Shown one piece after another: positions 175-52,939 of a DNA stretch of 64,000 bases. The position numbers and the translations under genes are program-made. Position 1 is the first letter of the stretch; each line of letters opens with the position of its first letter. This stretch comes from Pseudocercospora fijiensis CIRAD86 (Eukaryota > Ascomycota > Dothideomycetes > Mycosphaerellales > Mycosphaerellaceae), in the NCBI RefSeq assembly GCF_000340215.1, contig NW_006921553.1, positions 62,001 to 126,000 of the forward strand, written 5' to 3'. The notes under the pieces are model-generated. The model was not told the DNA's origin and searched no databases. It saw nothing but the letters and a program-made list of their open reading frames with translations.

Positions 175-544
175 AGCCCGAGAAACCTAAAAACAAATAA
201 TAGCGACGACGACGTAGCGAGGCCCTATTAAATACTAGACTATTCTAGCCGTCGTTTAGGACCTATAACCCTTCTAGAACTATACTAATTACTTAAATTT
301 AGTTACTTTTTATACTAGCCCTAAGCCCGATTTTTACTAGTAGAATTTTCGAAGACTTCTATTCCGTACGGCTAATAAAGTATACTATACTATATATATA
401 TACTTAGAGAGTATTTAGAGCGCGGTATATAGCGCCGTATAATAGCGGCTTATTTCGTATATAGAAAAACTTATAGACAATACTACGAATATCCTTCCTA
501 CTAGAATATCTATCCTACCTAGTACTATCTCGAATATAGATATT

Positions 545-1217
545 CTAGCCTTTAAGAATCTAATCGAGTGCTTTAAAATCCTTATCTATAATCGTAATAC
601 GCTTCGCGTAGATAGCTATAAGGTTAATTACTAAAATAGTATTAGTATAGTTCGAAAAGAGGTAGAAGAGAAATGTATTTTCGAAGATACGAACTAGATA
701 GGCTTCTATAGCCTCTTAAAGGGCGTCTAGCGCGGAGACTTAGAAGCGAAGGTCTAGTATATAATACTAGGCAATTTCGCGAATAAGTCGTTAGAAAGGA
801 GCTTTACGGAGTAGGAGACTCTAGTCCTTCTAATACTTCCGAATCTTACGAAGGACTACGGCTAAAGAAGGATTAGTAAAAAGACAGTAAGAATACCGGC
901 TACGCTACCGGCTACGCTACCGGCTACGCTACCGGCTACGCTACCGGCTAAGCTACCGGCTATAAAGACTTACTTCCTAAGCGCTATCGACGCTTCGTAC
1001 GATTATTACTACTAGTAGTAGAAGCGCTAGTTGTCGTCTTATATAGAGCCTTACCTGCCGTCGTCTTATACGGAGCCTTACTCGCGACGCCCTTTCTAGT
1101 ACTAGAGCTAGCGGTAGTAGTAGCAGCCTTCTTACGTTAATATACTATACTCGTTCTACTATTTCCGGCCTTATTACGACCCGTAGAAGTAGTAGGTCCC
1201 TTCTTACGAGGCGTCGT
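545..1217 (-). pseudogene. Histone H3-like gene, hAT copy B
   Basis: This is the reverse complement of the H3-like gene of copy A, with the same RIP-type stops. The first intron is at 862-973, with GTAAGT and a 3' TTTAG on the minus strand. It is about 21 bp longer than in copy A because it holds more units of the 12-bp GCCGGCTA-type repeat (897-962). The end is placed at the stop 545-547, which corresponds to the copy A stop. The start is provisional because no ATG survives. A second, independently mutated copy inside the same mobile element argues that this gene is element cargo and not a host histone. Confidence 0.8.
862..973 (-). repeat. 12-bp GCCGGCTA-type repeats filling an intron (copy B H3-like gene)
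   Basis: Six near-identical 12-bp units with core ACCGGCTACGCT lie within a canonical intron (GTAAGT, CTAAT branch-like site, TTTAG on the minus strand). The same motif recurs, usually as pairs 12 bp apart, throughout this hAT family and was not noticed in the other elements of the window. Confidence 0.8.
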
Positions 1218-2384
1218 AACTTAGTTAAGTAGACTCGATATTATAAAAGTCGTCGAATTAAGGAAAAAAGTATATTATAAAGGTATACGAAGGCGCGCGC
1301 GGAGCGAGGGTATTATAGAGGTAGTAGATATAGAGCGTAGAGATATAGGTATTAATACGAAGGTTAAATATAGCGAGAGAGGTAGTATCGCGGTATCGCT
1401 AGATAATAGAGTAAGCGTCGCGTAAGCCTATATTATAGTAACGTTAGAGTAAGGAAAGAAAGTAGGTACGGCTAAAAAAGGCAGGTACGGCAAACTTTGA
1501 AATATAGCCGGTATATATAGCTGGTATAGTAATAGGCGAAAGCCTCCTTTTAGTAAATAGCCGGCGTAATAATAGTATCCTACTATAGTATAGATATTGT
1601 TTAGTAATGCCTTTACTAGCTATAGTAATCTTATAAGTAACCTAGGCCTATTGCTAGTAAACATAAGAAATATTAGGTAGGCTATACTAAACAAGCTAGT
1701 TATTTAGTAGGAAAAGGCCTACTACCGTCTCTATATACCGGCTACGAGTGCCGGCTATCGCTCTAAATTCAACTCCGCCCTATCTCGGAGGCTAAGGTAC
1801 CGAGCGGAAAGCCTATAGCTTATATTTACTCGGTTGTCGCGGAGCGCTTATAGGTAAGGTATTAAAAAAGAGTATAAAAAGTACGAGAAGAGTATCCTAG
1901 GATATAGGTCGTAAGTAAATAAGAGTAGCACGCCTAGCTATTTATATAGTACGTTACTCTAAATAACTAGGAGCCTATATTATCTCGTACTTTGCTTATA
2001 AGACCTCGACTCTACTAGTATACTATCGATCTCCTCCTCGGTCGCTAATACGCTATCTTAATTCTTCTTCGAGTTACCGGACTTAGTACGTATCTATCGC
2101 TATATAATAGCGCTACGTATTATAGAGAAACTCTCGTTAAAGTTTCTCTCTCGTAGGCTTACTATCTACCTCGTAGTATAGAGGATTAAAGTACTAATAC
2201 TAAAGAATCTCCTTATAGTTAGGATACTAGGGCTCTTTAGGACCTTTGTATTTTAGGTCTAAATAGAGACGTATTATAAACGTTCTATTGCCCTTTTCCT
2301 TACTATCCGCTAGATCGCGATATACGAAGAAACTAGTCTAAATATAGCTCGTCTCTATAATAGCCGGGTAAATATAAAGCGCTA

Positions 2385-2392
2385 GGTTTCTA
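2385..2392. repeat. 8-bp target-site duplication, left of hAT copy A
   Basis: GGTTTCTA directly precedes the TIR and is repeated at 12880-12887 right after the other TIR. The uninterrupted site is visible as the reverse complement inside copy A itself near 8,850-8,860. Eight base pairs is the diagnostic duplication length of hAT transposons. Confidence 0.95.
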
Positions 2393-2426
2393 TAGACCCC
2401 GTAGTAGTTCGGTTTCCGAACTACTA
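2393..2426. repeat. 5' TIR of copy A with overlapping hairpin
   Basis: The 20-bp TIR 2393-2412 overlaps a perfect hairpin: arm TAGTAGTTCGG (2402-2412), 3-nt loop TTT, arm CCGAACTACTA (2416-2426). The same hairpin exists in copy B at 34511-34535. The 3' end of copy A has the TIR but no hairpin, so the two ends are structurally different. Confidence 0.9.
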
Positions 2427-2612
2427 AACGTATATAGTTTGGTTTCTTAGCGGCGAACTAGCTCCCTAGTTCCGGTTTAGTTTTTTCGAACTATATAGAT
2501 TCCTAGTTTAAACTAGAGACTGTATTAGTTTTACTATAAGGACACTCTTATTCGACTGCCGGCTACGATTGCCGGCTATAATAGTAACTCTGTTACATTT
2601 ACTACGCTCTTT

Positions 2613-2836
2613 TGCCGTTGCTAGGGCGTAGTTGCCGTTGCTAGGGCGTAGTTTTACTATAAGGATACTCTTATTCGACTACCGGCTACGATTGCCGGCT
2701 ATAATAGTAACTAGGTTATATTTACTACGCTCTATTACCGTTACTAGGGAGTAGTTGCTATTACTAGGGCGTAGTTGCTGTTATTAGGGCGTAGTTACTG
2801 TTACTAGGGCGTAGTTACCGTTACTAGGGTATAGTA
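2613..2836. repeat. Subterminal 20-bp tandem repeats (two arrays)
   Basis: Units with core GTTGCCGTTGCTAGGGCGTA occur about twice at 2613-2653 and about five times at 2735-2836, separated by a GCCGGCTA-type pair (near 2680-2702). Equivalent arrays occur on the minus strand at 34,095-34,330 (copy B) and on the + strand at about 63,660-63,780 (copy C). Arrays of short repeats near the ends are typical of transposase-binding subterminal regions in hAT elements; that role here is inferred. Confidence 0.8.
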
Positions 2837-3029
2837 ACTATAGTTGCGAAAGCTTACCTATATAACGTTATATAGGCGGCAATAATAAGGGCTTCGCGAT
2901 ATTCTTATACTTTTAACTTCTTCCTCTATACCTATACCGATAACAACTACTATACGCTACGCCCCCGCCCCTTTCCCTTATAATAGCAAGAGAGAAGCGC
3001 GCCGCGCGCTAAATAGAAGATAGAACTAA

Positions 3030-4420
3030 AGACCGCGAGTTTGTTTTACCTAAGCGTCTAACTAAAAAGCGTAAGACTAAAGAGGAGTACTCTACGAAGA
3101 AGAATTCCGTACGAGACTGCGAGAGAAAGGAGAAGATAGATAAGAATAAAAGAGCTAAGGAGAAGAGAAGAAAGGCGCGGAATAAGGTATTCTATCGATA
3201 GCTAGCGCCTATAGAAAAAAGTAAAGGTTAGAATAAGAAGACAACCTAAGAGAAGGCTAAGAGAAGGAAAGAATTATAGCTAGTTTTCGAGCGTAAAGTT
3301 CTAGTAGCGTAAGTTAATCTAGCTAGCGGCCGTAGCTAGCAGCTATAGCCGGCAGCCGTAGCCGGTAGCTATAGCCGGCATATTTTTCTTTAATACGTTA
3401 ACTAATAGTATTTAGACCTATAGCCGCTACCTCTATCGATACGACCGATAGTAACGGAGATGTTTAGATAGCCGAGAACAACAATACTAGAGTTTAGGAT
3501 GCCGCGATAGAGCTTAATACTACGAATAAAGGAACTAAAAAAAGCGAGGAGATACTATACGTCGATCTAGTAATAGGTATAGTCTTAGGGCCTAACGCTA
3601 TAGACGATAAGCGCTAGGAGTAGATCGAGTATAGTTAAAGAGACGAGATACTAGTAAATAGCTAAGGTATAAGTCCTATCAATCTAGAAAATTATAGTTA
3701 AAGCTACTACGAAAAGCTAGCAAGGATTGGAATCGAGACTAGTCGTCTTTATATCCTCGATATAGAGTAGAAGTTTCTTTATTAGTATTAGAGCGAAGCC
3801 TTTACGTCTATAAAGGCAAAGTAGCTTACGATTAATACGATCGGGGCTAGGTATCTAGGGACGGTAGAAGTATTACTATAGGAGGAAGGGGTATAGGTAA
3901 TTATTCTATACTCGGTATATATAGCCGGCGTTCGTAGCCGGTAGATACTAACAGTTAAATAGAAAGCGTTTCTCGAAGGTAGAGTACTACTACTATATAA
4001 AATCTTTACTAAGGCAGAGAGGGCTTGTATCCGGAATCTAAGCTACTAGTAGGATAGGTTAGCGTTAGAATTCTCTAAATCTCTATATAAGCCTCCGAAG
4101 GATTACCTATTTTAGCGATACGGCTTTATCTCGACTACTCTATAAGTACCTAAAGAAGCTCGAGCGCTCTTTAAGGTCTTTACTAAGAAGCGGAAGGAGT
4201 TCGAGGATTAGGATTAGTTAATAGAGCTATTAGTTAGTCTTAGGTTTCGTAGTTAGACTCGGCCTAAGTATTTGCTTATCGAGTGTCTTATACCGAAAGA
4301 GGATAGATTAAGACTAAAAACGAGCTTAGATTCGTTAGGTATAGTAGCTCGGTTCCGTTAGTAGGAGAGAGCCGCCGTATAGAAGGCAAAATTTAGGTAG
4401 TTAGGGTAGCTAGGAAAGAA
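3030..4420 (+). pseudogene. Unidentified Lys-rich accessory gene of the hAT element (copy A)
   Basis: This frame can be followed through RIP stops. The N-terminal part (about 3,040-3,308) is extremely Lys/Arg/Glu-rich (for example KEKIDKNKRAKEKRRKARNK). Then comes a probable intron 3309-3415 (GTAAGT, CTAAT, TTTAG) containing GCCGGCA/GTA repeats, followed by an acidic to neutral segment. A second probable intron, about 3897-3954, ends ACTAACAG and again contains the repeat; its exact 5' site is unsure because the phase does not join cleanly. A helical stretch follows, with motifs such as KVFTKKRKEFED and LIECLIPKEDRLRLK. I do not recognise a family. Its position directly upstream of the transposase in the same orientation is conserved in copy B and begins again in copy C, so it belongs to the element. 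Confidence 0.55.
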
Positions 4421-4549
4421 ATTCTAGTAGTTAGGCTAGCTAGGGTAGCTAGGAAAAAAAAATCTAGTAGTTAGGTAGCTAGGAAACAAAAAAAAAGGTA
4501 GCTAGCTATTTACTACCTAGCTATTCCTAACGATACGATACTATAAAAG

Positions 4550-7500
4550 AAAGGGTATTTCCCTATAGCTACTAGTATATATCTACTACTCCTAAGTCCT
4601 TACCTTACCGTACGAAACCTTAAAAAATGCCGACCGATATTGTATATATACTAGGCGCTATACTAGGAAGGGTAATAACGAGACGATAGTCGAAACAGTC
4701 TAGTATACGAGCGAGATTACGATAACGTCGAGAGGAGGTCGTATACTTACCTTCGAGCCTATCGAGTCCTAGACGACGATTAGGGCTAGATTCATCCTCT
4801 CCGAATCCTAGTAGTAGGAATTTATTATAGGGTACTACTACCTAGTCCTTACCTTTACGGAGTCTAAGTAGAAGGTTATTCGGAGATATAAGAATATCGA
4901 GTATTAACCCGGAAATCTTCGAAAAGGCTAGCTAGGCGTATCTTTAGAAACCCGAGTATATAGAGTAGTTTAATTAATAGGTCTATAAGATATAGTTCCC
5001 TTTATACTTACGTTTAAAGGAGTATAAACTCCGGAAGTACTCGATACGATAGGAGAGTAAGGAGCGAACGGACATATTCTAGAAGTTCTTTATAGAAGGG
5101 GTATTATACCGTTATACGACTTCTCGACTTAAAGGTTAACTAGTAATTGTCTACAACTTCTACGGTTTAATCTTAAAATACCCGAAACTAGGGGATAGGA
5201 ACTTATCGCCTATAAACTATCTCTATTCTAAACAGTATCGGAAATCTTAAGGAGAGAGGAGAGTTAATATAGATATAGCGTTCTAGAAAGAGGTACGTCT
5301 TCTAAAATGCCGGCTATAGCTGCCGGCTATAGCTACCGGCTATAGCTACCGGCTATAGATTCCGGCTATAGATTCCGGCTACCTAAATCAACCGTAGAGG
5401 TCTAGCTAATTATTATAGGCTACGCTTAAGGAAGCTCTAGGATTAAAGGCTACCGATTTCTCCCCCGAAGACTTTAAGCAACTAGTAAACGAAATACTAG
5501 CTATAAACGGTCTTCCGGAAGACTTCTACGAAAGGGAGTCTATATAGAAGATATACCTATATCTTATAAACTACCCTCCCCTATTTCTCGGCGCGATAAC
5601 CTAGCGTATTATATTCGAAAAGAATAAAGAGGCTACGTTAGATAACATTCGGGAGATCCTCCGTAATACTCGCCGAGTAGCTATTGCTATCGATAGCTAG
5701 TTAAGCCGGACTATAAGAGCCTCCTTCCTCTCGATTATACTATACTTTATTAATTCGGATTAGAAACTCTAGGAACTTATAATCGGATTCCTTAAAATTC
5801 TAGGTTCCTATACTAGTAAGGATATAGCGAAGCTTGTCTATACGGTAATAGATAGGGTTAGCGTAATAACGAAACTAATCTCGATTACTACGGACAACGC
5901 TAGTAATAATCGAATATTATATAAGGCGTTATATATACAATTCACTCGCATATGTCTTTAAAATTACTAATTATATCGATAGGGTCGAGTACGTAGAGGA
6001 GATTATAAGGTCTATAATCTAGCTTAATCTTCCGAATATTAAGCTCGCTACGATTCCGGATACGTACGACAATACGTATAATAATAACGATAAAGAGGAG
6101 CCTATTAATAGCCCTAGCCCTATTAAATCGGAGCCGACGTCGTTGCTAGTTACATCCCTATAGAAGTTTCCCTACCTCGCTTATATAGTTTAAATCGCGA
6201 TCCGAGCCCTCTTTAAGACGCTTAAAATTGCACTATTAAACGACGACTAATAGAAGATCCTAGATAAGGATAAAGTAAAGTCGAAAGTCGAGAAACTTAT
6301 TATAGCAATAAGACGGGATAACGTAGAGAGCCTCGCTCTTGTTTTGTATAAGGTATAAATTTTGTCCGTAGCCGGTACCTATAGCCGGTAACCTAGTATA
6401 GTTCTAACTCTTTTTCTCTAGCTTCGTCGTCTAGTAATATATACAAACTCGAGCTTATAGAGATATAACCGATTCGAGGCTATTTAAAAGAACCTAATCG
6501 AGCGCCCTAAAACCGATACCTAGAATATCGCATAGAATAAGCGATAGTAAAAGCGGCCTCCTTAGCGCCTACTCCGTTTTACCTAAGACGTTAAAACCCG
6601 GTTCGATTCGACTTTCTATATAGTTACGAGGGGATATACTTTACGTACCGCTCTCGAGATCTATTAGAGTTCCGAGGGTATTAAGTAGCTCGGCCTTACT
6701 ACCGCCGAATAGCGCTAAGTAGAGTATCTCGTCGATATTAGTAAGCATTACGCGAAGGTTACTACTACGATTAGAAGAACCCGAGGACCGACGATCTACC
6801 TTGTCTTTACGTACTATAACTAGCTCTTTAACGAGCTCGAGGAAACCGTAGCTAAGCTAGCTAAGAAGAGCGTTCCCTAGAAAGTAGCTATAACGAAAGC
6901 TATAGACACCTTCTATACTAAGTTGTATAAATATTATAGTACTACCTTTAAGTCGTTCGGGGATATCTATAGCGTTACGTACTTGCTTAACCCGGTAGAA
7001 AAGGATATATACTAGTAGAGGCCGGAATAGAAGGCGGACGAGGTATAGCCGAAGCATTACTAGACTATTCTAGAAAAGATATTCTACGAGCGTCGGAAAG
7101 AAACTAGTCTAAATACAGCTCCTATAAAGAAAAAGAAGGTTTAGAAGGCTCCGATATTATACCTATTTCGTAGATAGAAAGTAGAGGTAGAAGAGGAAGC
7201 AACTACTAAAGTAAATAAAGAAGAGTTCGATCTCTATCGGCGCGCGAGTAAGTATAAACCCGTAGGCTCGGAAAGAGGGCTAATAATCTCTAGATCTTAC
7301 CGGTCTTCTAGACGAATTCGGAGACGATATTCTCGCTATATAGTAGCGGTTAGAGCCTAAGTTTCTAACGATAGCGTCGGTCGCTCGGGACGTCCTCGCT
7401 ATCCCGAGCGTAGGTATAGGCTATAAGAGGTTTTTTAGTATCGCTCGTTACTAGGGCCGCTTTAATCGAATATACTCGCCTACTACCTTCGAATCTATTA

Positions 7501-7769
7501 TAGTATTCCGATACTATCTCCTCTACTAGAATCGCTAAGGCAGGTTACTAAAGATTATATTAAAGGAGTTAATCGAAGAATTAGAAAACCTTAAGATCGA
7601 AGAAACCTAGGAGCGCGAAAAGAATACGAAATTTAGTCTAAGCGAAACCCTAATTAGCGATAACGAAGAGGAGGAGGGCGGAGGTAGAAGGCGATACCGG
7701 GTCGAGAAGCGGAAATATATATAGGCTTAGAGTAGCTTTAAGGAGACGAAGCGTTTACGTATAAGGTAA
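4550..7769 (+). pseudogene. hAT transposase, RIP-killed (copy A)
   Basis: Recognised through stops by hAT signatures. ITTDNASNN lies around 5,880-5,910, inside the RNase H-like core (compare the family motif TDNAsNN). A DVKTR-[W]-NSTF-type block lies near 6,590-6,620. NELEETVAKLAKK and YKYYSTTFKSFGDIY lie around 6,830-6,980. The C-terminal dimerisation region, 7,345-7,520, contains ASVARDVLAIPS, RFFSIAR and PTTFESI. It ends with an acidic EEEEGGGRRR tail and TAA at 7767-7769. Probable introns are 5293-5418 (GTACGT to TATAG) and 6353-6421 (GTATAA, CTAAC, CTCTAG), both holding GCCGGCTA repeats. At least one frame change near 7,290 may be another intron. The start is uncertain: the upstream frame is coherent from about 4,550, and I could not identify a zinc-finger domain. 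Confidence 0.85.
5293..5418 (+). repeat. GCCGGCTA-type repeats inside a transposase intron
   Basis: About seven copies of CCGGCTATAG-type 12-bp units occupy 5,312-5,388 within an intron bounded by GTACGT and a CTAAT...ATAG 3' end. Removing it joins codons in frame (Ala-Phe-stop-Lys-Glu to Ala-Thr-Leu-Lys-Glu). Confidence 0.75.
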
Positions 7770-8119
7770 TATAGCCGGCGTATATAGCCGGTATATATCC
7801 GAAATATGTTTCGAATTCCTAGGACCTAAATAGACTAGTTGCTATAGCAACCGACCCCGCTTACCTACGGACTATTTCTAATTCTCTATTCGCTCTTCCT
7901 TTCTTTCTTCCCTTTCCCTATATTCTTAAAGATAAATATACCTTAAGGATTCGGCTCTTCGGGCCTTCCTAAGCCGGCTACCTCCCCTTCCTTAAGCTAC
8001 TATCCTTTATTCGAATCTAACGATAACCTACTAAGGCGGTTTAATAGAAGACTATTTGTTCTAAAAGGTAAGAAGCATTAATGTCTTCTTACGATTATAT
8101 ACTTATTAATTTTCTAGGT

Positions 8120-8746
8120 CCTACCGATATACCCTCGTCGCCTAAACGCGTAGATAAATATCTTTAAAGGCTAAAGGGTAAGGGTAAAGTAAGCTAAGTA
8201 TAGGGAGACCGTAGCGAGAACGAGATATTAGAAGAGTAAGGCTCTCCGTAGTATATACGAAGGAAGGGGGTTCCTCGGAAAATAGTACCGAAAAATAAGA
8301 AGGCTATAGGTAGATAGGAGAAGGCTAAAAAGAGTAGGCGGACGAAGACTATCGCGAAGAAAAGTTATCTTTCTATTAAAAGAAAGGGAATAAGGTAGGA
8401 CTCGACGATAAAGAAGCGGCGCTTTAAACTAGGTACTATTACCCTTCGCTAGATCCGGCTTTTCTAAAACAAAAGAGGGACCGAGCTTTTAATCCCTAAG
8501 ACTCCCTTCTAGCGACTCGTCCGAGAAATTATATTAGATTTTCGGTCTAGTATACGATTTACGGCTAAGGCGATTAGTGCTCTTTAGGAAGCTACGGAGG
8601 AATTTCTCGTAACCAAGCTTAAGCTTTTAAACCTCCTTACTATCTATACGAAGCGGGTTACTCTTTAAAATAAAGATATATAGCTTCTAGCTAAAATTCG
8701 GCGTCGGTTTATAGCGGATTAGTTAGAAATTGTATTTAGTCGTTAG
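8120..8746 (+). pseudogene. CENP-A-like (divergent) histone H3-fold gene, hAT cargo (copy A)
   Basis: One uninterrupted frame runs with RIP-type stops only. The histone fold occupies 8411-8746 (112 codons). KKRRFK, then GTITLR (H3: PGTVALRE), then TELLIPKTPF-stop-RLVREI (H3: LLIRKLPFQRLVREI), then DFRSSIRFTAKAISAL (H3 alpha-2), then EEFLV, then LLTIYTKRVTL (H3: CAIHAKRVTI) and NKDI before the terminal basic stretch. Two extra residues lie between alphaN and alpha1. The LLT-x-x-x-x-RVTL loop resembles CENP-A more than H3. The N-terminal tail (about 97 codons) is Lys/Arg/Ser-rich and unlike the canonical H3 tail. A probable intron about 8067-8119 (GTAAGA to TTTTCTAG) precedes it: copies A and B differ there while the exon is conserved. 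A host CenH3 origin is inferred, not shown. Confidence 0.82.
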
Positions 8747-9112
8747 ATTAACCTAGGAGGAGGCCTATTTTCGTATCCTTTTGCCGGCTATAGGTACCGG
8801 CTATATTTCCAATTTTATCTCCGCGCCGTCCCTAAATCTAAGGTACGAAGTAGAAACCTAGCGCTCTATATTTACCCGGCTATTATAGAGACGAGCTACA
8901 TTTAGATTAGTTTCTTCGTATATCGCGACCTAGCGAGTAGTAAGCGAAAGGGCGATAGAACGTTTATAATACGTCTCTATTTAGACCTAAAACATAAAGG
9001 TCCTAAGGAGCCCTAGTATCCTAACTATAAGGAGATTCTTTAGTATTAGCACTTTAATCCTCTATACTACGAGGTAGATAGTAAGCCTACGAGAGAGAAA
9101 CTTTAACGAGAA

Positions 9113-10203
9113 ATTCTCTATAATACGTAGCGCTATTGTATAGCTATAGATACGTACTAAGTCCGGTAACTCGAAGAAGAATTAAGATAGCGTATTAGCG
9201 ACCGAGGAGGAGATCGATAGTATACTAGTAGAGTCGAGGTCTTATAAGCGAAGTACAAGATAATATAGGCTATTAGTCGTATAGAGTAACGTACTATATA
9301 AATAACTAGGCGTACTACTCTTATTTACTTACGACCTATATTCTAGGATACTCTTCTCGTACTTTTTATACTCTTTTCTAATACCTTACCTATAATCGCT
9401 CTACGACAACCGAGCAAATATAAGCTATAGGATTTCCGCTCGGTACCTTAGCCTTCGAGATACGGCGGAGTTGATTCTCTATAATACGTAGCGCTATTGT
9501 ATAGCTATAGATACGCACTAAGTCCGGCAACTCGAAGAAGAATTAAGACAGCGTATTAGCGACTAAGGAGGAGATCGATAGTATACTAGTAGAGTCGAGG
9601 TCTTATAAGCGAAGTACAAGATAATATAGGCTCTTAGTCGTATAGAGTAACGTACTATATAAATAACTAGGCGTGCTACTCTTATTTACTTACGACCTAT
9701 ATCCTAGGATACTCTTCTCGTACTTTTTATACTCTTTTCTAATACCTTACCTATAATCGCTCTACGACAACCGAGTAAATATAAGCTATAGATAATAGGA
9801 TTTCCGCTCGGTACCTTAGCCTTCGAGATACGGCGGAGTTGATTCTCTATAATACGTAGCGCTATTATATAGCTATAGATACGTACTAAGTCCGGCAACT
9901 CGAAGAAGAATTAAGACAGCGTATTAGCGACTAAGGAGGAGATCGATAGTATACTAGTAGAGTCGAGGTCTTATAAGCGAAGTATAAGATAATATAGGCT
10001 CTTAGTCGTATAGAGTAACGTACTATATAAATAACTAGGCGTACTACTCTTATTCACTTACGACCTATATCCTAGGATACTCTTCTCGTACCTTTTATAC
10101 TCTTTTCTAATACCTTACCTATAAGCGCTCCGCGATAACCGAGTAAATATAAGCTATAGGGTTTCCGCTCGGTACCTTAGCCTCCGAGATAGGGCGGAGT
10201 TGA
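9113..10203. repeat. Three tandem copies of a ~365-bp block
   Basis: A block beginning ATTCTCTATAATACGTAG starts at 9113, 9474 and 9842 (spacings 361 and 368). Each ends near a GGCGGAGTTGA motif. Copies differ by a few substitutions and short indels. Copy B has only one block (about 1,770-2,130, reverse strand), so the triplication arose in the copy A lineage. No protein was recognised in it. The flanks 8,747-9,112 and 10,204-10,700 are RIPped spacer with GCCGGCTA pairs (8,784, 10,207, 10,450). Confidence 0.9.
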
Positions 10204-10767
10204 ATTTAGAGCGATAGCCGGCACTCGTAGCCGGTATATAGAGACGGTAGTAGGCCTTTTCCTACTAAATAACTAGCTTGTTTAGTATAGCCTACCTAAT
10301 ATTTCTTATATTTACTAGTAATAGGCCTAGGTTACTTATAAGATTACTATAGCTAGTAAAGGCATTACTAAAGAATATCTATACTATAGTAGGATACTAT
10401 TATTACGCCGGCTATTTATTAAAAGGAGGCTTTCGCCTATTACTATACCGGCTATATATACCGGCTATATTTCAAAGTCTGCCGTACCTGCCTTTTTTAG
10501 CCGTACCTGCCTTTTTTAGCCGTACCTACCTTCTTTCCTTGCTCTAACGTTACTATAATATAGGCTTACGCGAAGCTTACTCTATTACCTAGCGATACCG
10601 CGATACTACCGCTATATTTAACCTTCGTATCGATATCTATACCTCTACGCTCTATATCTACTACCTCCGTAATACCCTCGCTCCGCGCGCGCCTTCGTAT
10701 ACCTTCGTAACGCACTTTTTTCCTTAATTCGACGACTTTTATAATAGCGAGTCTACTTAACTAAGTT

Positions 10768-11416
10768 ACGACGCCTCGTAAGAAGGGACCTAGTACTTCT
10801 ACGGGTCGCAATAAGACCGGAAATAGTAGAACGAGTATAGTATATTAACGTAAGAGGGCTGCTACTACTACCGCTAGCTCCGGTACTAGAAAGGGCGTCG
10901 CGAGCAAGGCTCCGCGTAAGACAACGGCGGGTAAGGCTCTACGCAAGACGACAACTAGCGCTTCTACTACTAGTAGTAATCGTACGAAGCGTCGATAGCG
11001 CCTAGGAAGTAAGTCCTATTTATAGCCGGTAGTATAGCCGGTAGCGTAGCCGGTAGCATAGCCGGCATTCTTACTGTCTTTTTACTAATCCTTCTTTAGC
11101 CGTAGCCCTCCGTAAGATTCGGTAGTATTAGAAGAGTTCTAAGCTCCTAATCCGTAAAGCTCCTTTCTAACGACTTGTTCGCGAAATTGCCTAGGATTAT
11201 AGAACGGACCTTCGCTTCTAAGCCTCCGCGATAGGCGCCCTTTAAGAGGCTATAGAAGCCTACCTAGTTCGTATCTTCGAATGTATATTTCTCTTCTACC
11301 TCTTTTCGGACTATACTAATACTATTTTAGCGGTTAACCTTATAGCTATCTACGCGAAGCGTATAACGATTATAGACAAGGATTTTAAAGCACTCGATTA
11401 GATTCTAAAAGGCTAG
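10768..11416 (+). pseudogene. Histone H3-like gene with two introns, hAT cargo (copy A)
   Basis: Exons 10768-11008, 11100-11282 and 11331-11416 (170 codons) read as a histone H3. The long basic Ser/Thr tail contains RKGVASKAPRKTTAGKALRK, echoing the H3 tail. Next come GTVALRKIR, SSKLLIRKAPF-stop-RLVREIA, DYRTDLRF, ASAIGALQEAIEAYLV, FE, AIYAKRITI and DKDF. Intron 1 (11009-11099) has GTAAGT, CTAAT and TTTAG; its removal regenerates Gly-Thr-Val-Ala-Leu-Arg. Intron 2 (11283-11330) has GTATAT, ACTAAT and TTTTAG; its removal regenerates the FE-xx-NL-xAI junction of alpha2/L2. In-frame stops are TAG/TAA from Gln, Arg or Trp codons, and Met/His codons read Ile/Tyr, as RIP predicts. The C-terminus (KALD-stop-ILKG) departs from canonical RRIRGERA. 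Start and stop are provisional. The tail and C-terminus suggest a variant H3 and not a recent host copy. Confidence 0.88.
11009..11099 (+). other. Intron 1 of the H3-like gene with GCCGGTA repeats
   Basis: The intron has a canonical GTAAGT donor, a CTAAT branch-like site 11 nt before the TTTAG acceptor, and a run of TAGCCGGTAG-type 10-12-bp units at about 11,024-11,067. It is the clearest example of the family motif sitting inside a spliceosomal intron. Confidence 0.8.
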
Positions 11417-12345
11417 AATATCTATATTCGAGACGGTGCTAGGTAGGATAGATCTTCTAGTAGGAAGGATATTCGTAGTATTATCTATAAGCTTTTCTAT
11501 ATACGAAATAAGCCGCTATTATACGGCGCTACATACCGCGCTCTAAATACTCTCTAAGTATATATATATAGTATAGTATACTTTATTAGCCGTACGGAAT
11601 AGAAGTCTCCTAAAATCCCGTTAGTACTAAGGAGTAAAAAGGCCGGCTACGCTGCCGGCTACGCTACCGGCTACGCTGCCGGCTACGCTACTAGCTACGC
11701 TGCTAGGTTTTTTAAAGAACTAAAAGAAGATAGACATTCCGGTTGATTTGTATTAGTTTGGATTTTTATAAAAAGAAAACAGGGAAAAATAAGGAAGGTT
11801 GAAGAGCCTAATAGTTATAGTTATAGGCACTATCCCTGTTTTCTAGAGCATATTATACACCTGCCTTCGCAACTCTACCTAATACTCCCTCTAAATATCC
11901 TTATACTCTACCTACTAGAAATTCAACTAGGTACCTAGACCTATAGCTACCTCTATATCTTTTACTATCTTCTATAGGTTAAAGGCCTCTTCTATAGCAG
12001 CCTCTACCTCCTTATATAATACGAAGTTACTACCTGCCCTACCCTTTATATCTCCTAAATAACTAAGAGTTCTAAGGAACGAACTAGCATTCGGCCTTAG
12101 TATAGCGAGTAACTAGTAGAACGTTCTATAGAGCTGCCTTATAGCTCTTTTATATACTATACCGATACCGAGAGAGGAGCTATCCTAGTACTTAATATTA
12201 TCGAATAGTTCGGTAGGAAAGTGTTAGAACTTCTTAAGGAGGAGGACTTCTAGGGAAATCGATAAGTTCTACCTAGATCTAGATAATAATATTCTACCGA
12301 GTAGTTAGGGAATTGAATAGCGAGCGAAAGGATAAAATTTATACC

Positions 12346-12751
12346 TAATAAGTGCAGTTTCTAAACTAAACTATAATAGCTTGTATATGTGTGTGCTTTT
12401 AATTAGTTAGTGCCCTTAGCTAATTGTCTATAGATTTAGGGTTATATAAGTACCTTCCTATAACTGAAAAATGCCGGCTACGCTACCGGCTATACTCTCG
12501 TATCTTATAAAGGGCTTACTTCGAGTTACGTAGACATTCTTACACTTCTAATAAGTGCAGTTTCTAAACTGAACTATAATAGCTTGTCTGTATGTGTGCT
12601 TTTGATTAGTTAGTACCTTTAGCTAATTGCCTATAGATTTAGGGTTATATAAGTACCTTCCTATAACTAAAAAACGCCGGCTACGCTACCGGCTACACTC
12701 TCGTATCTTATAAAGGGCTTGCTTCGAGTTACGTAGACATTCTTACACTTC
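12346..12751. repeat. Two tandem 203-bp 3' subterminal repeats of copy A
   Basis: Units start TAATAAGTGCAGTTTC at 12346 and 12549 and each contains one GCCGGCTA pair. They retain more TG and CA than their surroundings. A single diverged unit occurs in the truncated copy at about 39,325-39,515. Region 11,417-12,345 is RIPped spacer with a repeat cluster at 11,641-11,705; I see no recognisable gene there. Confidence 0.85.
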
Positions 12752-12859
12752 TTAGAAACCGATAAATTCTATAGTTCGAACTAGCTACTCTTGTAGTTGC
12801 TTAGCAAATCAACCTAAACTAAACTAGATCTTCGGCTTAGTAAACCAAACTAAACTAAC

Positions 12860-12879
12860 CCGAACTACTACGGGGTCTA
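12860..12879. repeat. 3' TIR of hAT copy A
   Basis: CCGAACTACTACGGGGTCTA is a perfect 20/20 inverted match to 2393-2412. It is followed by the target duplicate GGTTTCTA (12880-12887). Confidence 0.95.
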
Positions 12880-12991
12880 GGTTTCTACTTCGTACCTTAG
12901 ATTTAGGGACGGCGTAGAGATAAAATTAGAAATATAGCCGGTATCTATAGCCGGTAAAAGGATACGAAAATAGGCCTCCTCCTAGGTTAAT

Positions 12992-18116: not shown

Positions 18117-18238
18117 TATTACGAAGGCAGGTATAGGTATAGGCTAGGTAGGAGGCCCTAGCCTTCTATAGTATATACTTCTCTAAGCCTAGATAGACTT
18201 AGAATAATTATCTACTTTATAATATACGATGTATAACA
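18117..18238 (+). repeat. 5' LTR, 122 bp
   Basis: Begins TATTACGAAGG (TG to TA by RIP at the expected 5' TG) and ends GTATAACA. Matches 33238-33359 with a few CpA/TpA differences. A candidate primer-binding site starting TAGTAGCTTCGC (ancestrally TGG) lies 3 nt inside; the tRNA was not determined. Confidence 0.92.
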
Positions 18239-18699
18239 AAATAGTAGCTTCGCTTCGAGTACTAGCGTAAAACACGTACTAACCGTCTCTAAACGGACTA
18301 TCCGAACTACGGTTTACTATTCCCCTCTTTAAGGCGAAAGTCCTCCGCGCCGAAGGAGAGTTCTAACGAACTACTCTAATACTACTTTCCGCACTATTAA
18401 ACGCCGTAGCTATACTGCAAGAAAGAGGCTATAATTTAGTACGAAAACATACGAGACCTACTAGCGAATCGGTACGGAAATTAACGATAGACCTAGCCTA
18501 GCGCCGCGGCGCGCTTTACGCTCCCTCTATTAATACCCTTACTTACTAAGGGTAGGAACGACATTTCGGGTTAGTAGGAGCTAGGTACCTAACCCTCCTA
18601 ACTTCCCCTTTTTAGGTATAAGGATATAGAAGGTTCTAATTACTCTTACGGTAGCTGCTATATCTATACCTACGGTTAGTATTAGGACGGTACCCTATT

Positions 18700-21600
18700 C
18701 CGTCTCTTAGCGAATAATATCTACGTCTTAATATAGGAGCTTATAGTATTAAAGGACTAGGAATCTCCGAACGAGCCGCCGCCTATAGCCTAGGAGGATT
18801 GTACTCTTCCCGAATTAGAGGAAGATAGATACTACCTAGTTTATATAGTATATATACTATTAGCCTTCTCGAAACTAAGGTAGTACCTAAACAAGCTATT
18901 CGAGAAGGATCTTAGATATAGAGTTATCGCTATTACCGAGTAGTACGAGGATCCGGAGGAGGCTAAACCTCTACGTTGCCTAAGGTTATAGTCCCGTATT
19001 CCGGATACGGATAAAGACGCGACTCCTAAACCTTAGATACGCGCTAAGATTATTAGTTCGTAGGTTAACGATAACTCCCTATCGCTTTCCGCTATACGAT
19101 AAGTATATCGTCTAACTTCGTACTAGTCGGATAGCCTATATTTCGCTTAGTAGCTAGTAGAACACCTTAAGTCTACTAACGAGAATCTAGCCGTAGGCGA
19201 GAATTAGCTACGTCGCCGTAAGGTTTATATCCCTCTACGACTAGAGAAGTAGGGCGTCCGTCGCTTAATTAAGGACGAGAACTTAGGCTAAGCTAAGCCT
19301 AATAGACGTAGGGAGTCTTTTAAAATTAACCCGCTAACGGGTAACGTTTTTAAGAATTTCGGTATCTTTCGTAAAGACGACCCGCCTCCTAAGCCTCGCG
19401 AGAGCTTATTAATCTCGGTATCTAGTAGTTCGATACTTAGCTCGCTACCGGATTCCTAGCTAAAAGGAGGAGATATATCGGGTAAGTAGGCTCTAGGATC
19501 TATAGTACCGGCGAACGGTATAGCCGGCGCTAAATAGCGAAATAAAATTAGATAAATAAAGTCCTAGGTAGCTTAGTAGCTAGCCGAGTAACGTACTAAG
19601 GTAGATAATAATCGAGCTACGGATCGTATACGTCTATAGAGGGTACTAGACGAGTAGCGCGAGGCTTACGAGATCGAGATATAGGCCTAAATCTAATAAG
19701 CGTTTAACGAAGGCCGTAAGGAGGCTATAAGAGCTAAGAATAAGAGTAGAGATAAGGGTATAGAAGCTAGTAGAGCACTACCTCCGATAGCCTTAGAATA
19801 GCGCTATACTATCGATACGAATAGTATCTCTAAATTGTTCCTTACCGACGAATAGCGACGTCGAAAGAGGAATACTAAGTCTATTAGGCACTTTAACGAC
19901 GAGGTTACCGCTAATAACAACGCTACTACTAATACTAATACTAGGAATAATAGGAATAACAATACCTCCGCTAGCGCTAATAACGATAATACTAGATACG
20001 ATAAGCTAGAGGCATTAGTAGGAAAACTAATAGAGGTAATATAGTCTAATAGCGCCGCCTTAGCGGCCCTACGACCGAATAATAACTATTCTAGGCTACC
20101 GGGGTAGTAGCGATATAGAAATCTTTACGCGATACGTAGCCGAACTAGCTAAGGTACGACTAGAGCTAAGTAGCTAGCTAATTAGAATCGGAATGCTCGA
20201 GCTAGTATTATACTAGAGATTAGCTCGGAACGCTACGCCTATAGAGGCCTTAACGCTAAAGGTAATCCTAGGCCTATCTAAGATAAGGCCGGCTTTATAG
20301 ACCCGAGGTTCGAGCCCGCCGACGTATATACTCTACTATACGCTAGTCCTCCTTATACTCTAGTTACGGACTTTAGCTAGGAGGTCGCGCCCTATAAGTT
20401 TAAGCCTAAGTAAGTTAGGTATTTTAATAAGGACCTTCCGGAGAGTAAGGGCAAAGGCCTAGTTATATATATTAGTAATACGGCCTATTATCGAGACGTT
20501 TTTGCTTTTATTACTCGCCTTAATATAGCTATTTAAGTAGGCGAGTATCTAGTAGCAACTCTACGTCTATTACTATATAGATGCCTTTAGGGCTCCGCCT
20601 TAACTTAGTACCTTTACGGCCTTACTAACGATCGACGTACGCTCCTTTAAACTAGCCTAGGTATCGAGCGATAGAAGGAGGCCTTATACGAGTAGTTCCG
20701 ATTAGATCCCTTAGTCGCGGCGCGCGAATTAGAATTAAAATAATATCGTATTAAGGAAGTCGCGGCCCGAAAGAGCGTAAGCGAATTCGTTATTAACGTT
20801 ATACGTTTAGCGTAGTAAAGCGGTACGGAGTTACTTATAGGGTAAATTAACTATACCTTCTAAAAGATCGTACTAGAGCTACGTAGCGATCTTAATACGC
20901 CTACGCTATTATAGATATATTAGACGCTTATCGATATAATATAAGCCTATTATATAATATAGGTAGAATTATATCCTCTAGATAGTACTACTACCGGCTA
21001 CTATAATAGTAAGTTAAACCTTCGACGTAGCGATTCGGTATAGGGTAGGTTCGTAGACCCTAGGTTCGCGTCTAGGTCTCGTTTTAATACTAGACGCTCG
21101 TCTTTCCTTAGAAATAATAATCCCTATAATCGGTAGCAACCTAATACATTCTAGTAACGCCGTTAGCCTAGATTATAGGTCTATAGCCGCTAGAGACTAT
21201 AGGGCGTAAACGTAAACGTAAACGAGAAAATAGTAGACGCCCGCGGTCTCCCGTAGTATCCGAATCCTTAGAGATAGTAGACGAATTTCGGAAATATAAG
21301 AGGCTAAGGCATTCCCGCAAATTCCTAGGCTCGTAGTAAAGCTACGTTCTTCTATAATTTAGTAGACCTAGGGTAGGAGACTAACTATTAAGAACTAGAA
21401 TACGATAATACTACCTAAGCTAAGGGCGGAGAGTAGGCTAAGGATTAGTATATAGCTAGCGAGGATATCGGCGGTATCGAGGTAGAAGAGGACTAAGCTC
21501 TTCCTCCTATAAATCTATAGTTAACTCTAGTATACTACGCCTAGCCGTAGGTTCGTAAACCTAAGGTAAATGCCTAGCCTTAACGCGATAAAACGCGACC

Positions 21601-21950
21601 CGAAGGTCGGTAGACGCGTTATAATATATACGGAGAGGTTTTCCGCTCGGCTAACGAGTTTTTTAATAGCTACCTCGATTATATATACCCTAAGGACGCT
21701 ACTAGGAAGCGTACGAATATTCTTTACGAGCTAGCTCCGGGAAACTCCTCGAGCTAGAAGTAAAACTAGTTACTACTAGCTAGTATAAAACCGCAAGTCT
21801 ACCGGAAATTCTAGAATCCCTAGCGGTAGCGGAACTCCTAAAGTCGCCGGGTCGCTTACTACCGGATAAGCAAATATCTTTATATCTAGTAATAACGATT
21901 ATAGTAGGATAGCCTAGCTAAATATCGATACCTATACTTCTAGTACTATA
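18700..21950 (+). pseudogene. Gag-type ORF of the 15.2-kb element
   Basis: A single frame is followed from about 18,700 with RIP stops. A Retrotrans_gag-like helical domain lies at about 20,480-20,960 (VFAFITRLNIAI, ASLGIERWKEAL-type and ELELK spacing, TLIDII). An Asn/Thr-rich linker lies at 19,900-20,000. No CCHC zinc knuckle was recognised. The frame differs from that of RT, so the ancestral element used a frameshift or a separate pol. Confidence 0.6.
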
Positions 21951-22779
21951 GCCCGCAACCTCTAGTCTATTAATAGATATCTAAGCCTAAATATTCTAGT
22001 CTATATCGGTATCGCGCCCCCCCGCGGCGGATTATACGTTTACGCTAGCGGGCGTAGCTTTTCCTATAGAAGATTCTTCCGCTACGATCGCTCTATAGTA
22101 GACTACGCCTAGCTCTATCTATATATTAGATTTGCTACTAGATATCCTAGCGGGCGTAGCGACTACTATTAGGAGGTCCCCGATTAATCCGGACGCGCTA
22201 AATACTCGGAATACTATAATATTAGTTACGGAGTAGCCCTAAGTCTACTATATCGCCTAAACGACTAAGGCTACGCCCTTAGTAGAAGAGGCGTAGTACT
22301 ATATAATTTTATTAAGTACCTCGAAGATTTCTTCCCCTATCGACGATAGGAAGGCTCGTACGGGGAAGCGCTCCTTTAGTACTATTAATAACCTTATACT
22401 ATAGGTCTATTATATACGAGAACGCCCTTAATAGAAATTGCAAATTATACCCTACTTAGTAAAACTCCCTCCGGGAGACCTAGCTTATATCTTTAGATAT
22501 TACGATATCGTCGAAGCGAACTACGCCCTTTCTCCGGAAGGGGATTTTAAGCGCGTTTGCCTCGATACTAGTACTAAAGTATCTATAATAGACTAGGGGT
22601 AGCTAACTATATAACTAGGGTAGGACGATATTTAGTATCTTAAGTAACCTCTAGAATTCCGTAGTTTAGCTAGAAGTATATAGTACGAGTAATAGATTAA
22701 TTTGTCGATATACTTTCCTATCTTCGCTAGGTATTCTTAGTTACCCGCTCTAGCCTATATTAAATAGCTAGTAAGGGTA

Positions 22780-25700
22780 ATACTAAACTTACCCTATAAT
22801 ATACTCCTCGGGACGGATATTATAACGCCCGTAGGATTTATTATCTATATAGGCGCTAGATATATTAAGATAATAGGAAACGACGGCGCGCTTATACCGA
22901 TCGCCTATTCGCTAAAATCTAATCGTTTCCTACGCGCTAATATTAAGTCTATAGATAGACTAAGAGTACTACTACGTATAGCCGTTATAGCTAAGGTATA
23001 AATCGATAAAGCCGACGCCTTAAAGGACGTAAATAGGGACTTCCTCTTCGCGCTAAATCTACTAAGCCTCCCTAATACGGCGGTAGTATACGCCTATATA
23101 GCTAGACTAGAGATACTAGCGGTATAGGTCCGTAATCTTAGCTACGATAACGACTTAATTATTTAGCAATATCGAAGTATAAGCGAATTATAGGAACTAT
23201 AGCTAGATAACTTCTACTAGATCGACAAGTTCGATACCGACCCTAAGTCGATAGAGCGTAAGATTAGCGGCGCGCCTCTTAGACGAGATCTACGACTAAT
23301 AAATAGGCTCTACTATATATCCGAATCGATAGACCTACGGTTACTAGTAGTTTTTTAAAGCGACGCTATAGGCTAGTTTTAGTTAATTCCGCCTCTAGCT
23401 AAAGACTCCGCAAATCGCGATTAGGCTAGAGTAGGCCTATAATTCCGGCAGATCCGTAAATCTTAACCTACTATTTACGGACTTAGCGAAAACGACGAGA
23501 TAGACTTAATAGACCTAGACTACCCTTCCGATACTACGAAGATCTTAGTAGATATAGGGATAGTAACCGTTATAACCTCGGCTAGAGTAACGATCTATAT
23601 AGCGAATCTAGATACCGCGGTAGCCTTAGATATTAGGTCTATCGTAGAGAAATACCCCTAACTATAGATAGATCGGGATACGACGATCGATCTTTTTAAA
23701 GATAGATAGCTAGAGCTCCTACTTAAATCGGGCTAGGAAAACGAGAAGTTTAGTAGTAAGGTCTACTATATATCCGATAAGGATAATATAGAGGTAAATA
23801 AGCAGTTTAATAAGCTTTATACTTAAGGCAAAATAGCCTATAGTAAAAAGCTATCGCCGCTAGTATAGCTAGTCTTTATAGTCTAGAGAACTCTTTTCCG
23901 CGACGATAGTACTATATATAGGAAGCCGCGTATAGTAATCGATATCCGAGGCCTTAATAGTATATCCTAGAAGGATACCTACCCGCTACTACTCTAGGAC
24001 GATATTATCGCGAAATTACGCGGCTATAAGTATATTTCTATTATAAATATAAGATCTATATTCTACTAGTTCGTAGTCGCGGAAAAGGATCGCTAGAAAT
24101 TTACCGTTAATACTACGCGGGGATAGGAATATCTAAAAGTCGCTACTATAGGTTACTATAATAGCGTATAGTACGTATAAAGACTACTCGATCGTACCCT
24201 ACGGGAATTCGGCGACGTAGCGAATAGGTATATTAATAATATAGTTCTCGGCTCGGTAGACCTAGAGTCCTACCGAGATTTGCTTAATCGCGTATTTAAA
24301 AAAATAGATAAGATACGGTTTAGTTTAGAGCTAGAAAAGGCGTTCTTAGATTTCCCCTCTATAAAAATCCTAGATAGAGAAGTAGACGGAAAAGGCTTCG
24401 TAACGTAGGCGGATCGACTTATAGTACTACGAGAATTAGAAAAACCTACTAACGCCGAATAACTTAAGTAATATCTCGGACTAGTAGGCTACCTTAGGTC
24501 TATAGTACTATACTACGGAAGAATTACCCTACCGCTATAATAGGCGAAAGTTGCGGCTATAAAGGATTATTAGGCTACTTAAACGAAAGGAGGCAAGCGA
24601 CGCGCTTAAATACGGGGCGCGCGCCTCTAATAGACTAACGAAATAAATACCGCTTAGGAAATTATATAGTCGATATAGTCGGAAGAGTACCGAGGGTTTC
24701 TTTAGCATTTTAACCCTAAGTCTACCCTCTATATCGACGTTAATATATCTAAGGAATTCGGAATCGGGGTAATATACTACTAAGTCTACGGAGACTTAGA
24801 TATAGAATACGAGGAGCCCGAACTAGTAACTCGTAGAGACGATATAGTTTCGGATTTCGTTAATAGTACTACCTAGTTACGGAGATCTAAGCAATTCCCG
24901 CGTAATAGACTTAAGGTCTTAGGATTTACTAGCTATATACTTACCGGGGCCGAAGCCTACTACTAGCCTATAGAACTCGAATTGTTCGGGGTAGTATAGG
25001 CAATTAAGAGGGCCTCTTATATAGTAGATTCCGCGCTAAAGACTATCGTAGTTACCGACTATAGTATAGTTACTATAATAGCGAAAAAGATATAGATCGT
25101 AACGACGGTGTCTACGGCCGGCCTTAACCGCCGAATTATCTAAGCCGCGGTATATATTTCCTAGTTTATAAACCTCGATATTATTTATAGGCCGGGTAGG
25201 AATTATATCGCTCCCGATATACTCTCCCGATTATAAGGTACGAGCTCTCCTAATCGATATAACCTTAATATAAGCGGCTTCGACGAGATTCCCGCGATAT
25301 TAGTAAGAGCGCCGATATTAGAAATGCTATAAAACCCTACGTCTATCGAAGATATCGGGAGCGGCGTAGAAAAGATATATATTATAAAAAGATCTAGACG
25401 ATATACGAACGATACCTAGAATCGGCCTATACTAAAGACCGGTACTATACCCCCTTACCTAGATCCTAGGCCGCGATCCTTAGCCCTTCCGAACTTCTAT
25501 CTAAGCGTTCCTATTCTTCCTACTATAGCGTTAGTTAATATAGTATCCCTATCCGGGATCGACTATACTAAGTATTTTCTTTCGCGACTCGATAGATATA
25601 AATACTAGGCCTACGATAAGATCCCTATATTTTTCTATAGTCTCCGAGGGGAACCTAGCTATTATATTAAAACGGTTATATCGCTATCCGATAACTTTAA

Positions 25701-27420
25701 AACCTAGCTAAGATAGGCTTATTAAGAAGACCGTCCGTAAAGACGTTTACTCTCCGTCCTTTAATCTATTAAAATAGCGTATATATAGGAATAGTAACCT
25801 TAGCCGGATCGAATATTAAACCGGTAGGCGAGGAGGAAGTAGAAACGCGAGCGAGATAGAGAGCTTAAGCGAAGATCCGTATATCTCGAAGCCGCCTAGC
25901 GTAAAGATAGTAGCGAGAAACTATAGGTCTATCCTAAGGCGACGCCCGGCTATCTCCTAAAACCGCCTTCTCTCCGCTCTTTAGAGGATACGGCCGCTCG
26001 TAGTATATAGAACGCGCTTAAGAGACTAGACGATATTCCTATAGACCTAAAGTCCTTATATAGTATTAGATTCTTTCGGGAGGACGGCCTTATCTACTAC
26101 GTCGACCTAGTTTTACTTTACTCTCGATTATATATTCCTTTCGCTCTTACTTATAAGATCTTTAAGATAGTATATAACCTAAGGTACTACGCGGGGTTCT
26201 AGCGTACGCTCGATTAAGTTAACGCTAGTTTCTATATTAGGTACTACCGTCGATATTTAGAACGATATATCGATTAGTATAATATATATAAGGCGAACTA
26301 ATCGACTCGGTATAAGCCTTACGGCTAGCTTAACCTAATAGACTCGAAGTATCGACTTCCTATAGACGTCTAAATAGCGGATTAGATTATAAGACTCCCG
26401 CCTACTAACGAAGGTTTCGATACGCTCCTTATAGTTACCTATAAGAAATCTAAGCGAGTTTTGCTACTTCCCGGGAAATGCTAGTAAACTATAGAAACGT
26501 AGGTAGCCTAATACCTTACGTCTATCTAAGAACGATCTTAGCGGATTGCTAAGGTATTTATTTGCGACCGGGACCCTAAATAGCTATCTAAATTTTTTAC
26601 TACGATAATAAAGCTACTAGGTATATCGATCCTCGCCTCTATAGCTTACTACCTATAGATAGATAGCTAGTCTAAGCGTACAAATTAGACCGTTAAGATC
26701 GCTATACGGTATTTTGTTACGGCAAATCTAGATATATAGTAGACGGACGTCCTTCCCTCTCTTATATCCTATCTCGGGAGTATTAAGAATACGAGCACCG
26801 GCGTCTCGCCCGATAAGATGCTTTTCGGGTTCGATTTAAATACTAACGCCTTTATTAGGCTCCGGGAACTATAGCTAAAAGACTACGTAACGCTACGATA
26901 GTAGTTTCGCGACGTAGCCGAGGAATCTATAGCCTTCGTAGCGGTAGATATAAAGCACCGCTACGATACTAAGCATTAGTATATATTCTTCGAGCCGGGA
27001 GACTATACTATACTTAGGCTATATTACGGATATCGCGTATATAGTTAGAGCTATCGCAAATATAGTAATTAGGCTATAGGCCCTTTTAAGATTAAGAGAA
27101 GGATAGGTAAGCTAGCCTATAAACTAGAGCTACCGAAATTAGCTAAGTTCTACCCGGTAATATCGATCGCGTAGCTTAAGCTAGCCCCTAACCTAGTAAA
27201 GGACCCGTTCGTAAGACTATACGACCGTATCCCCGTACCGATAGACCTAGAGTCTAAGTAACTAATAATAACTCCTAAACGCGTTTTAGAGAAGCGTAGT
27301 TTTAGAGGAAAAACGGAATATCTAGTTAAGTAGAAGGACGAGTAGCCGATAATAAATAAATAGATTAGGGTAGACGACCTTCTAGAGAGTAACGCTTACC
27401 TAATCGACTAGTTTGAGGAC
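22780..27420 (+). pseudogene. Gypsy pol: protease end, RT, RNase H, integrase, chromodomain-like tail
   Basis: LLGTDIITPVGF near 22,800 resembles the C-terminal part of a retropepsin. RT is at about 23,840-24,540 (KPRIVIDIRGLNS; the active box reads YINNI at 24,229-24,243; then YLGLVGYLRS). RNase H is at about 24,690-25,240 (YRPGRNYIAPDILSRL). An integrase zinc-binding region is at about 26,140-26,330, and its core is at 26,340-26,900 (YYPQIDSQSKRTNQTV, counterpart of HPQTDGQxERxN). GPFKIKRRIGKLAYKLELP lies near 27,090-27,150. A chromodomain-like PKRVLEKRSFRGKTEYLVKW lies at about 27,275-27,335. The last motif suggests a chromovirus-type targeting tail. Confidence 0.85.
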
Positions 27421-30830: not shown

Positions 30831-30839
30831 ATTTAAGGC

Positions 30840-33175: not shown

Positions 33176-33237
33176 ATATATACAGATACTAAGTCTACCG
33201 TCCGCGTAGTCGCGGACATTTCGGGACCGGGGGATTC

Positions 33238-33359
33238 TATTACGAAGGCAGGCACAGGCATAGGCTAGGTAGGAGGCCCTAGCCTCCTATAGTATATACT
33301 TCTCTAAGCCTAGATAGACTTAGAATGATTATCTACTTTATAATATACGATGTATAACA
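33238..33359 (+). repeat. 3' LTR, 122 bp
   Basis: Same sequence as 18117-18238, but slightly less RIPped (retains GGCACAGGCA). Followed by the CTAAG target duplicate (33360-33364) and then copy B sequence. Confidence 0.93.
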
Positions 33360-45740: not shown

Positions 45741-46001
45741 TCACTTGAGTTTTGGTTTAATGCATCTTAAATATAGCTTAAGAGCGACTATGCTAGTTGT
45801 AACAAAAATGCCCTTTAGCCGCGTCCTCTGTTTCTCCTCCGTAATAGTATCTCGGACTTCAACGTCTAAAGCATTCGGGCTCCTAGACTGCCTAAGGAAA
45901 TAAGCAGAGTTCGAGGCTAGTTGATTTGGTAAGGTTTGAGGTTTGCTGAGCACTGAAGACGTGTAACGAGGTGAACTTAGGGAGATATCGAGTATCGCCA
46001 C
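45741..46001 (-). CDS. Hypothetical 86-codon ORF at the island edge
   Basis: An 86-aa minus-strand ORF straddling the RIP/normal boundary. Its C-terminal half lies in partly RIPped DNA. No recognisable domain; could be a truncated gene tail or chance. Confidence 0.15.
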   Translation of the reverse strand: MAILDISLSSPRYTSSVLSKPQTLPNQLASNSAYFLRQSRSPNALDVEVRDTITEEKQRTRLKGIFVTTSIVALKLYLRCIKPKLK

Positions 46002-51760: not shown

Positions 51761-51774
51761 CGCCAGAAAAAAAA

Positions 51775-52893: not shown

Positions 52894-52939
52894 TGGATTT
52901 TTTTTCTAGAAAATCGATACCTTTACCGCCCGCAGCTTC

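Follow-up and report, generated by a model that had tools for sequence, protein, structure and literature searches.

Two divergent histone H3 genes in a RIP-inactivated hAT transposon of Pseudocercospora fijiensis

How did a DNA transposon come to carry two histone genes, and did they ever serve it? The question is raised by positions 2393-12879 of a 64,000-nucleotide stretch of Pseudocercospora fijiensis CIRAD86 (contig NW_006921553.1, positions 62,001-126,000; the whole stretch is called the window below), where a transposase of the hAT superfamily and two genes with a histone H3 fold, here gene A and gene B, lie between the same terminal inverted repeats (TIRs). Judged against the published description, this element is almost certainly a copy, inactivated by repeat-induced point mutation (RIP), of the H3-carrying hAT family that Dhillon et al. 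reported in 2019 from P. fijiensis, the banana black Sigatoka fungus (PMC6710886). The first-pass annotation of the window knew of no described hAT family with histone cargo, a statement contradicted by that paper and by Manning et al. 2013 (PMC3538342). The family is already known; what is refined here is the intron reading of gene B, a match to the dimerisation domain and signs of possible constraint on gene A.

Boundaries and copies of the element

The window copy measures 10,487 bp. It opens with a perfect 20-bp TIR, is closed by the inverted match of the same sequence, and is flanked by identical 8-bp target-site duplications (TSDs), as the first-pass annotation had proposed:

2385-2392, no strand: left TSD, GGTTTCTA
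2393-2412, plus strand: left 20-bp TIR, TAGACCCCGTAGTAGTTCGG, by assembly-wide TIR count
12860-12879, minus strand: right 20-bp TIR, inverted TAGACCCCGTAGTAGTTCGG
12880-12887, no strand: right TSD, GGTTTCTA, identical to the left TSD

The assembly, 73.9 Mb in 30 contigs, was searched for TIRs and histones. With up to three mismatches, the TIR 20-mer occurs at 472+486 sites, compared to 7+4 for the reversed control (958 against 11 in total). The histone profile search scored 150 matches of 772 candidates; among the matches listed, only the host H3 on contig C6 and a CENP-A-like host gene on contig C5 are stop-free, and all element copies among them carry in-frame stops. Eight further copies with a TIR spacing of 9.5-10 kb were fetched from the TIR matches listed, and three copies of a second subfamily were picked through the histone search; neither sample is random. 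Both H3 genes are present in 13 of 13 copies, namely the inner and outer copies of the window, the eight TIR-paired copies and the three of the second subfamily, and all eight TIR-paired copies have the dimerisation region as well. The second subfamily is 78-86% identical over aligned blocks and keeps genes A and B in the same order, and a third subfamily (two copies, about 88%) has gene A, the only gene looked for there.

These counts bear on the simplest explanation, that a fragment of host H3 was inserted by chance into a single copy. The window does hold nested insertions, but the 150 histone matches scored in the assembly and the two genes found in every copy inspected, including those of the 78-86% identical subfamily, make such an accident extremely improbable; we rejected it, and the case that the first-pass annotation had itself named as fatal, a chance nested fragment in one copy, is excluded.

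Identical 8-bp TSDs flank five of the seven fetched copies in which both ends were found (L044, with incomplete sequence, was left out), and these duplications, like those of the window copy, are as expected for the hAT superfamily. Over the five repeat-rich blocks examined, CpA and TpG reach 0.05-0.16 of the expected level, a strong RIP signature; at 46-53 kb they stand at 1.2 and 1.15, respectively.

The published family comprises 784 RIP-inactivated H3-like copies in 471 hAT elements, each with one or two H3 genes, of which 133 elements are 9.5-9.9 kb long with a 20-bp TIR and an 8-bp TSD (PMC6710886); the finding is restated in a 2026 paper (PMC13041039). The present element resembles it in the 20-bp TIR, the 8-bp TSD, the length of about 9.5-10 kb, the hAT transposase, the two H3-like genes, the CA-to-TA RIP and the hundreds of copies. 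The seven delimited copies, which were chosen by their 9.5-10 kb spacing, measure 9,565-9,934 bp, within or near the published set. In addition, the intact H3 lies on contig C6 here, and the original H3 was located on scaffold 6 by Dhillon et al. Some observations weigh against this identification. The window copy is longer than the published full-length set, in part because of three tandem units of ~362 bp at 9113-10203; L040 and L043, two of the seven delimited copies, are without matching TSDs; and DUF659, published for the family, gave no Pfam match in the window fragments, where the frames are cut by RIP and introns. The present account also departs from the published one in reading a 16-residue insertion as an intron and in finding a dimerisation domain.

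The hAT transposase

The transposase precedes the histone genes on the same strand:

4621-7760, plus strand: hAT transposase, disrupted by RIP and spread over several exon-like frames (4621-5301, 5380-5925, 5981-6346, 6401-7231, 7240-7750; borders approximate)
7326-7445, plus strand: C-terminal hAT dimerisation region (PF05699); score 18.7 bits in this copy

Dhillon et al. reported the hAT dimerisation domain as not identifiable (PMC6710886). Here, PF05699 scored 18.7 bits in the window copy, under the Pfam cut-off of 21.4, and 23.9, 23.7, 20.9 and 17.2 bits in four other copies, exceeding the cut-off in two of the five copies tested; the hAT transposase named in the first-pass annotation is confirmed. 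A search for relatives of the transposase found none at E 0.001 among 7993 candidates. The open reading frame (ORF) at 3420-4382, upstream of the transposase, has no Pfam match and no codon bias. Elsewhere in the assembly, locus L004 (C2:4665071-4668319) has a hAT dimerisation match in a stop-free frame of 805 residues and does not match the H3-carrying element by blastn.

Two divergent H3-type genes

Genes A and B follow, separated by a tandem array:

8081-8731, plus strand: gene A, a divergent H3 with its tail at about 8081-8419, its fold at about 8420-8731 and in-frame stops; 3' end approximate
9113-10203, plus strand: tandem array of three ~362-bp units that separates the two genes
10744-11008, plus strand: gene B, tail exon; start inferred
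11009-11099, plus strand: gene B, presumed intron 1 (GTAAGT...ACTAAT...TTTAG)
11100-11283, plus strand: gene B, histone-fold exon, by Pfam match and frames
11284-11331, plus strand: gene B, presumed intron 2, 48 bp
11332-11420, plus strand: gene B, remainder of the histone fold, with an approximate 3' end

Profile comparisons were made on translations with stops read through. Gene A matches the Pfam Histone family (8081-8740, E 9e-24) and the H3 chains of the PDB (8237-8722, 1.1e-26), and gene B also matches Pfam Histone (11099-11521, E 2.5e-22). Two different H3-fold genes thus lie between the TIRs, and the anatomy drawn in the first-pass annotation stands with two corrections: in-frame stops interrupt the genes, and the element has inserted into another copy of itself. 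Neither tail has the canonical H3 start ARTKQTARKS, as both ARTKQ and ARKS are absent from A and B and present in host H3; two AKKS stretches are retained in gene A. Close intact relatives of gene A were sought elsewhere, with 369 matches; the 120 matches listed have 40-57% identity, and the 11 inspected resemble ordinary H3 or CENP-A.

A long C-terminal extension of gene A was considered, since the frame is open except for TAA and TAG, but was not retained. Because TGA codons are lost through RIP, a frame that stays open past gene A is weak evidence; the candidate extension at 8741-9430 has no Pfam match, and most of 8861-10366 fails to align with the second subfamily.

Core identities were counted on read-through sequences, with RIP changes included and the CENP-A exons joined by eye. 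The cores of A and B share 50/90 residues; gene A shares 53/92 with host H3 and 46/93 with host CENP-A, whereas gene B shares 61/90 and 50/90, respectively. Genes A and B differ from one another as much as from host H3, and neither is a recent tandem copy of the other. CENP-A/CenH3 proteins are recognized by a longer loop 1, and no gain in loop 1 was found in gene A or gene B. Both genes being nearer to host H3, an origin from CENP-A is disfavoured, and so is a role in centromere identity, which the first-pass annotation had entertained beside possible marking of the element's own chromatin, biased insertion and counteraction of silencing.

Intron-like segments in gene B

Dhillon et al. recovered exon-exon junctions without introns in their de-RIPped H3, from which the capture of a transcript was inferred, and ascribed a 16-residue insertion in the second H3 to a mutation predating amplification; the abstract, Results, Discussion and Methods of that paper make no mention of an intron at the insertion site (PMC6710886). 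The segment 11284-11331 of gene B is 48 bp long, equal to 16 codons and thus of the same size as the published insertion. It starts with GTATAT, contains ACTAATA and ends with TTTTAG, and the H3 alignment is restored when it is omitted. Among the 13 aligned copies, the GT donor is kept in three (as GTATGT in L040); in the other ten the donor G is lost, nine times as RIP of TpG predicts, and the TTTTAG end is kept in all 13. The published 16-residue insertion therefore looks like a 48-bp intron.

A second segment, 11009-11099, lies between the tail and the fold of gene B. All 13 aligned copies keep its GTAAGT and its TTTAG end, and 12 of them keep ACTAAT. Host H3 has its intron 2 behind the first base of the Gly codon in GTVALRE; the gene-B segment interrupts the following Thr codon at the same point, in the same phase and one codon downstream. 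From their sequence features, both segments would have been spliced.

These segments bear on the published origin, which has the element capture a transcript or retrocopy of host H3 and multiply it passively between the TIRs, without the H3 sequences ever serving it. The intron-free junctions recovered after de-RIPping agree with it, and the tail/fold junction of gene A is likewise without an intron. By contrast, two intron-like segments in gene B, one of them a codon from host intron 2 and in its phase, argue against it, as does a difference between A and B comparable to that from host H3. The transcript-capture model does not predict an intron at 11009-11099 beside the site of host intron 2. 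For gene B, with its presumed introns, the capture of an intron-bearing gene, or a later gain of introns, fits better than a retrocopy.

Short repeats of the GCCGGTAGC type recur in the element at ~3330-3385, 5304-5370, 8780-8805, 11020-11075 and 11640-11700. Some sit inside presumed introns (gene B intron 1 and the breaks between transposase frames), and the number of units varies among element copies.

Possible constraint before RIP

Since the mutations caused by RIP are transitions, the change that preceded it was gauged from transversions between the first two subfamilies; the counts are small, the gap between genes A and B is poorly aligned, and the p values are uncorrected for several tests, all of which tempers the case for function made below. 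In the transposase frames, 66 of 124 transversions fall at codon position 3 (p 4e-6), an excess that supports the frame assignment. Transversions occupy 12/312 sites in the gene-A core, 124/2767 in the transposase, 115/926 in the A-B gap and 46/472 at the left end. The gene-A core is slower than the A-B gap (p 4e-6) and the left end (p 0.002), and has half the rate of its own tail and upstream region (39/488, p 0.025). Between subfamilies the gene-A fold and the transposase changed at about the same low rate, which suggests, though it does not prove, selection before RIP.

Position 3 also takes 16 of the 30 transversions in the gene-B core (p 0.019) and 22 of 42 in the two cores pooled (p 0.008). 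Other results speak against a past function: the gene-B core, with transversions at 30/270 sites, shows no slowing relative to non-coding DNA, position 3 takes just 4 of the 25 transversions in the gene-B tail, and the codon pattern of the gene-A core is not significant by itself (6 of 12 at position 3, p 0.18; position 2 compared to positions 1 and 3, p 0.07). For gene B the constraint results are mixed, and selection on it is undecided. The slow gene-A fold counts against passive multiplication of a captured transcript, and the absence of overall slowing in gene B between subfamilies counts for it; weighing these with the intron evidence, we regard the published origin as a serious contender, just short of probable.

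Another explanation is that the H3 genes were working genes of the element, whose divergent H3 may, for example, have loaded its chromatin with tails poorly marked by silencing enzymes. It is consistent with the slow gene-A fold, the pooled position-3 excess and tails that, unlike that of host H3, are without ARTKQ and ARKS; the AKKS stretches of gene A count against it. A separate hAT in Pyrenophora tritici-repentis carries an intact H3L supported by expressed sequence tags (ESTs), although its authors considered drift possible for H3L (PMC3538342). On balance, working genes are plausible but tentative.

The element of Manning et al. 2013, like the present one, has between its TIRs a divergent H3 gene together with a further ORF of unknown function; it differs in its sizes of 5.6 and 2.3 kb, its 26 nearly identical copies and the ESTs of H3L (PMC3538342). 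Dhillon et al. saw no similarity between the hAT elements of the two species. They also listed H3-like, RIP-inactivated repeats, 135-520 per genome, in Cercospora zeae-maydis, P. eumusae, P. musae, Sphaerulina musiva and S. populicola, with a hAT domain in three of these five species; compared by description only, the C. zeae-maydis element has an 18-bp TIR instead of 20 bp (PMC6710886). Among the literature matches listed, we found no hAT/H3 cases beyond P. fijiensis and P. tritici-repentis.

Nesting and surroundings in the window

The element sits within another copy of itself that lies in reverse orientation and whose outer segments are 92-94% identical to it; both H3 genes are found in each:

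345-2392, minus strand: outer reversed copy, gene-B part, by alignment at 92-94% identity
12880-18116 (alignment from 12877), minus strand: outer copy, gene A and most of the transposase, 93.5% identity
33360-34544, minus strand: outer copy, left end with TIR, by alignment to the inner copy

The outer copy is split by an insertion of ~15.2 kb at 18117-33359 with 122-bp direct repeats that are 95.9% identical. This insertion shows an apparent 5-bp target duplication and may be a long-terminal-repeat-type element with nested insertions.

A non-autonomous copy of ~387 bp lies at 60080-60466, with the same left TIR and an imperfect right TIR; its flanks, GGCATTTC and GGTATTTC, form a TSD with one RIP-type transition difference. 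The region 46000-53000 is a GC-rich island (about 46-57%) without RIP signature within the RIPed block. It holds a stop-free frame of 470 codons, and the 372-residue part searched has no database match.

Discussion

We propose that an ancestral hAT element acquired two H3-type genes, that its transposase would have moved and multiplied the whole, leaving 8-bp target duplications, and that RIP would then have converted CpA to TpA in the repeats and broken the genes. As the element copies among the histone matches listed all have in-frame stops, nothing is likely to act now. Before RIP, gene A may have made a histone of use to the element, and silencing marks might have been set poorly on a divergent H3 whose tail is without ARTKQ and ARKS. 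A bolder proposal, that the H3 genes are long-standing element genes for divergent nucleosomal H3 variants and not housekeeping copies captured passively, that selection kept them because they shield the chromatin of the transposon from silencing marks, and that two Dothideomycetes hAT lineages recruited such genes independently, appears unlikely at present.

It was already published that a DNA transposon can spread a core histone gene to hundreds of copies and that RIP can bury them. The intron-like segments of gene B and the slow gene-A fold count against a captured transcript carried as a passive passenger, and these refinements reopen the question of whether transposons use histone variants of their own.

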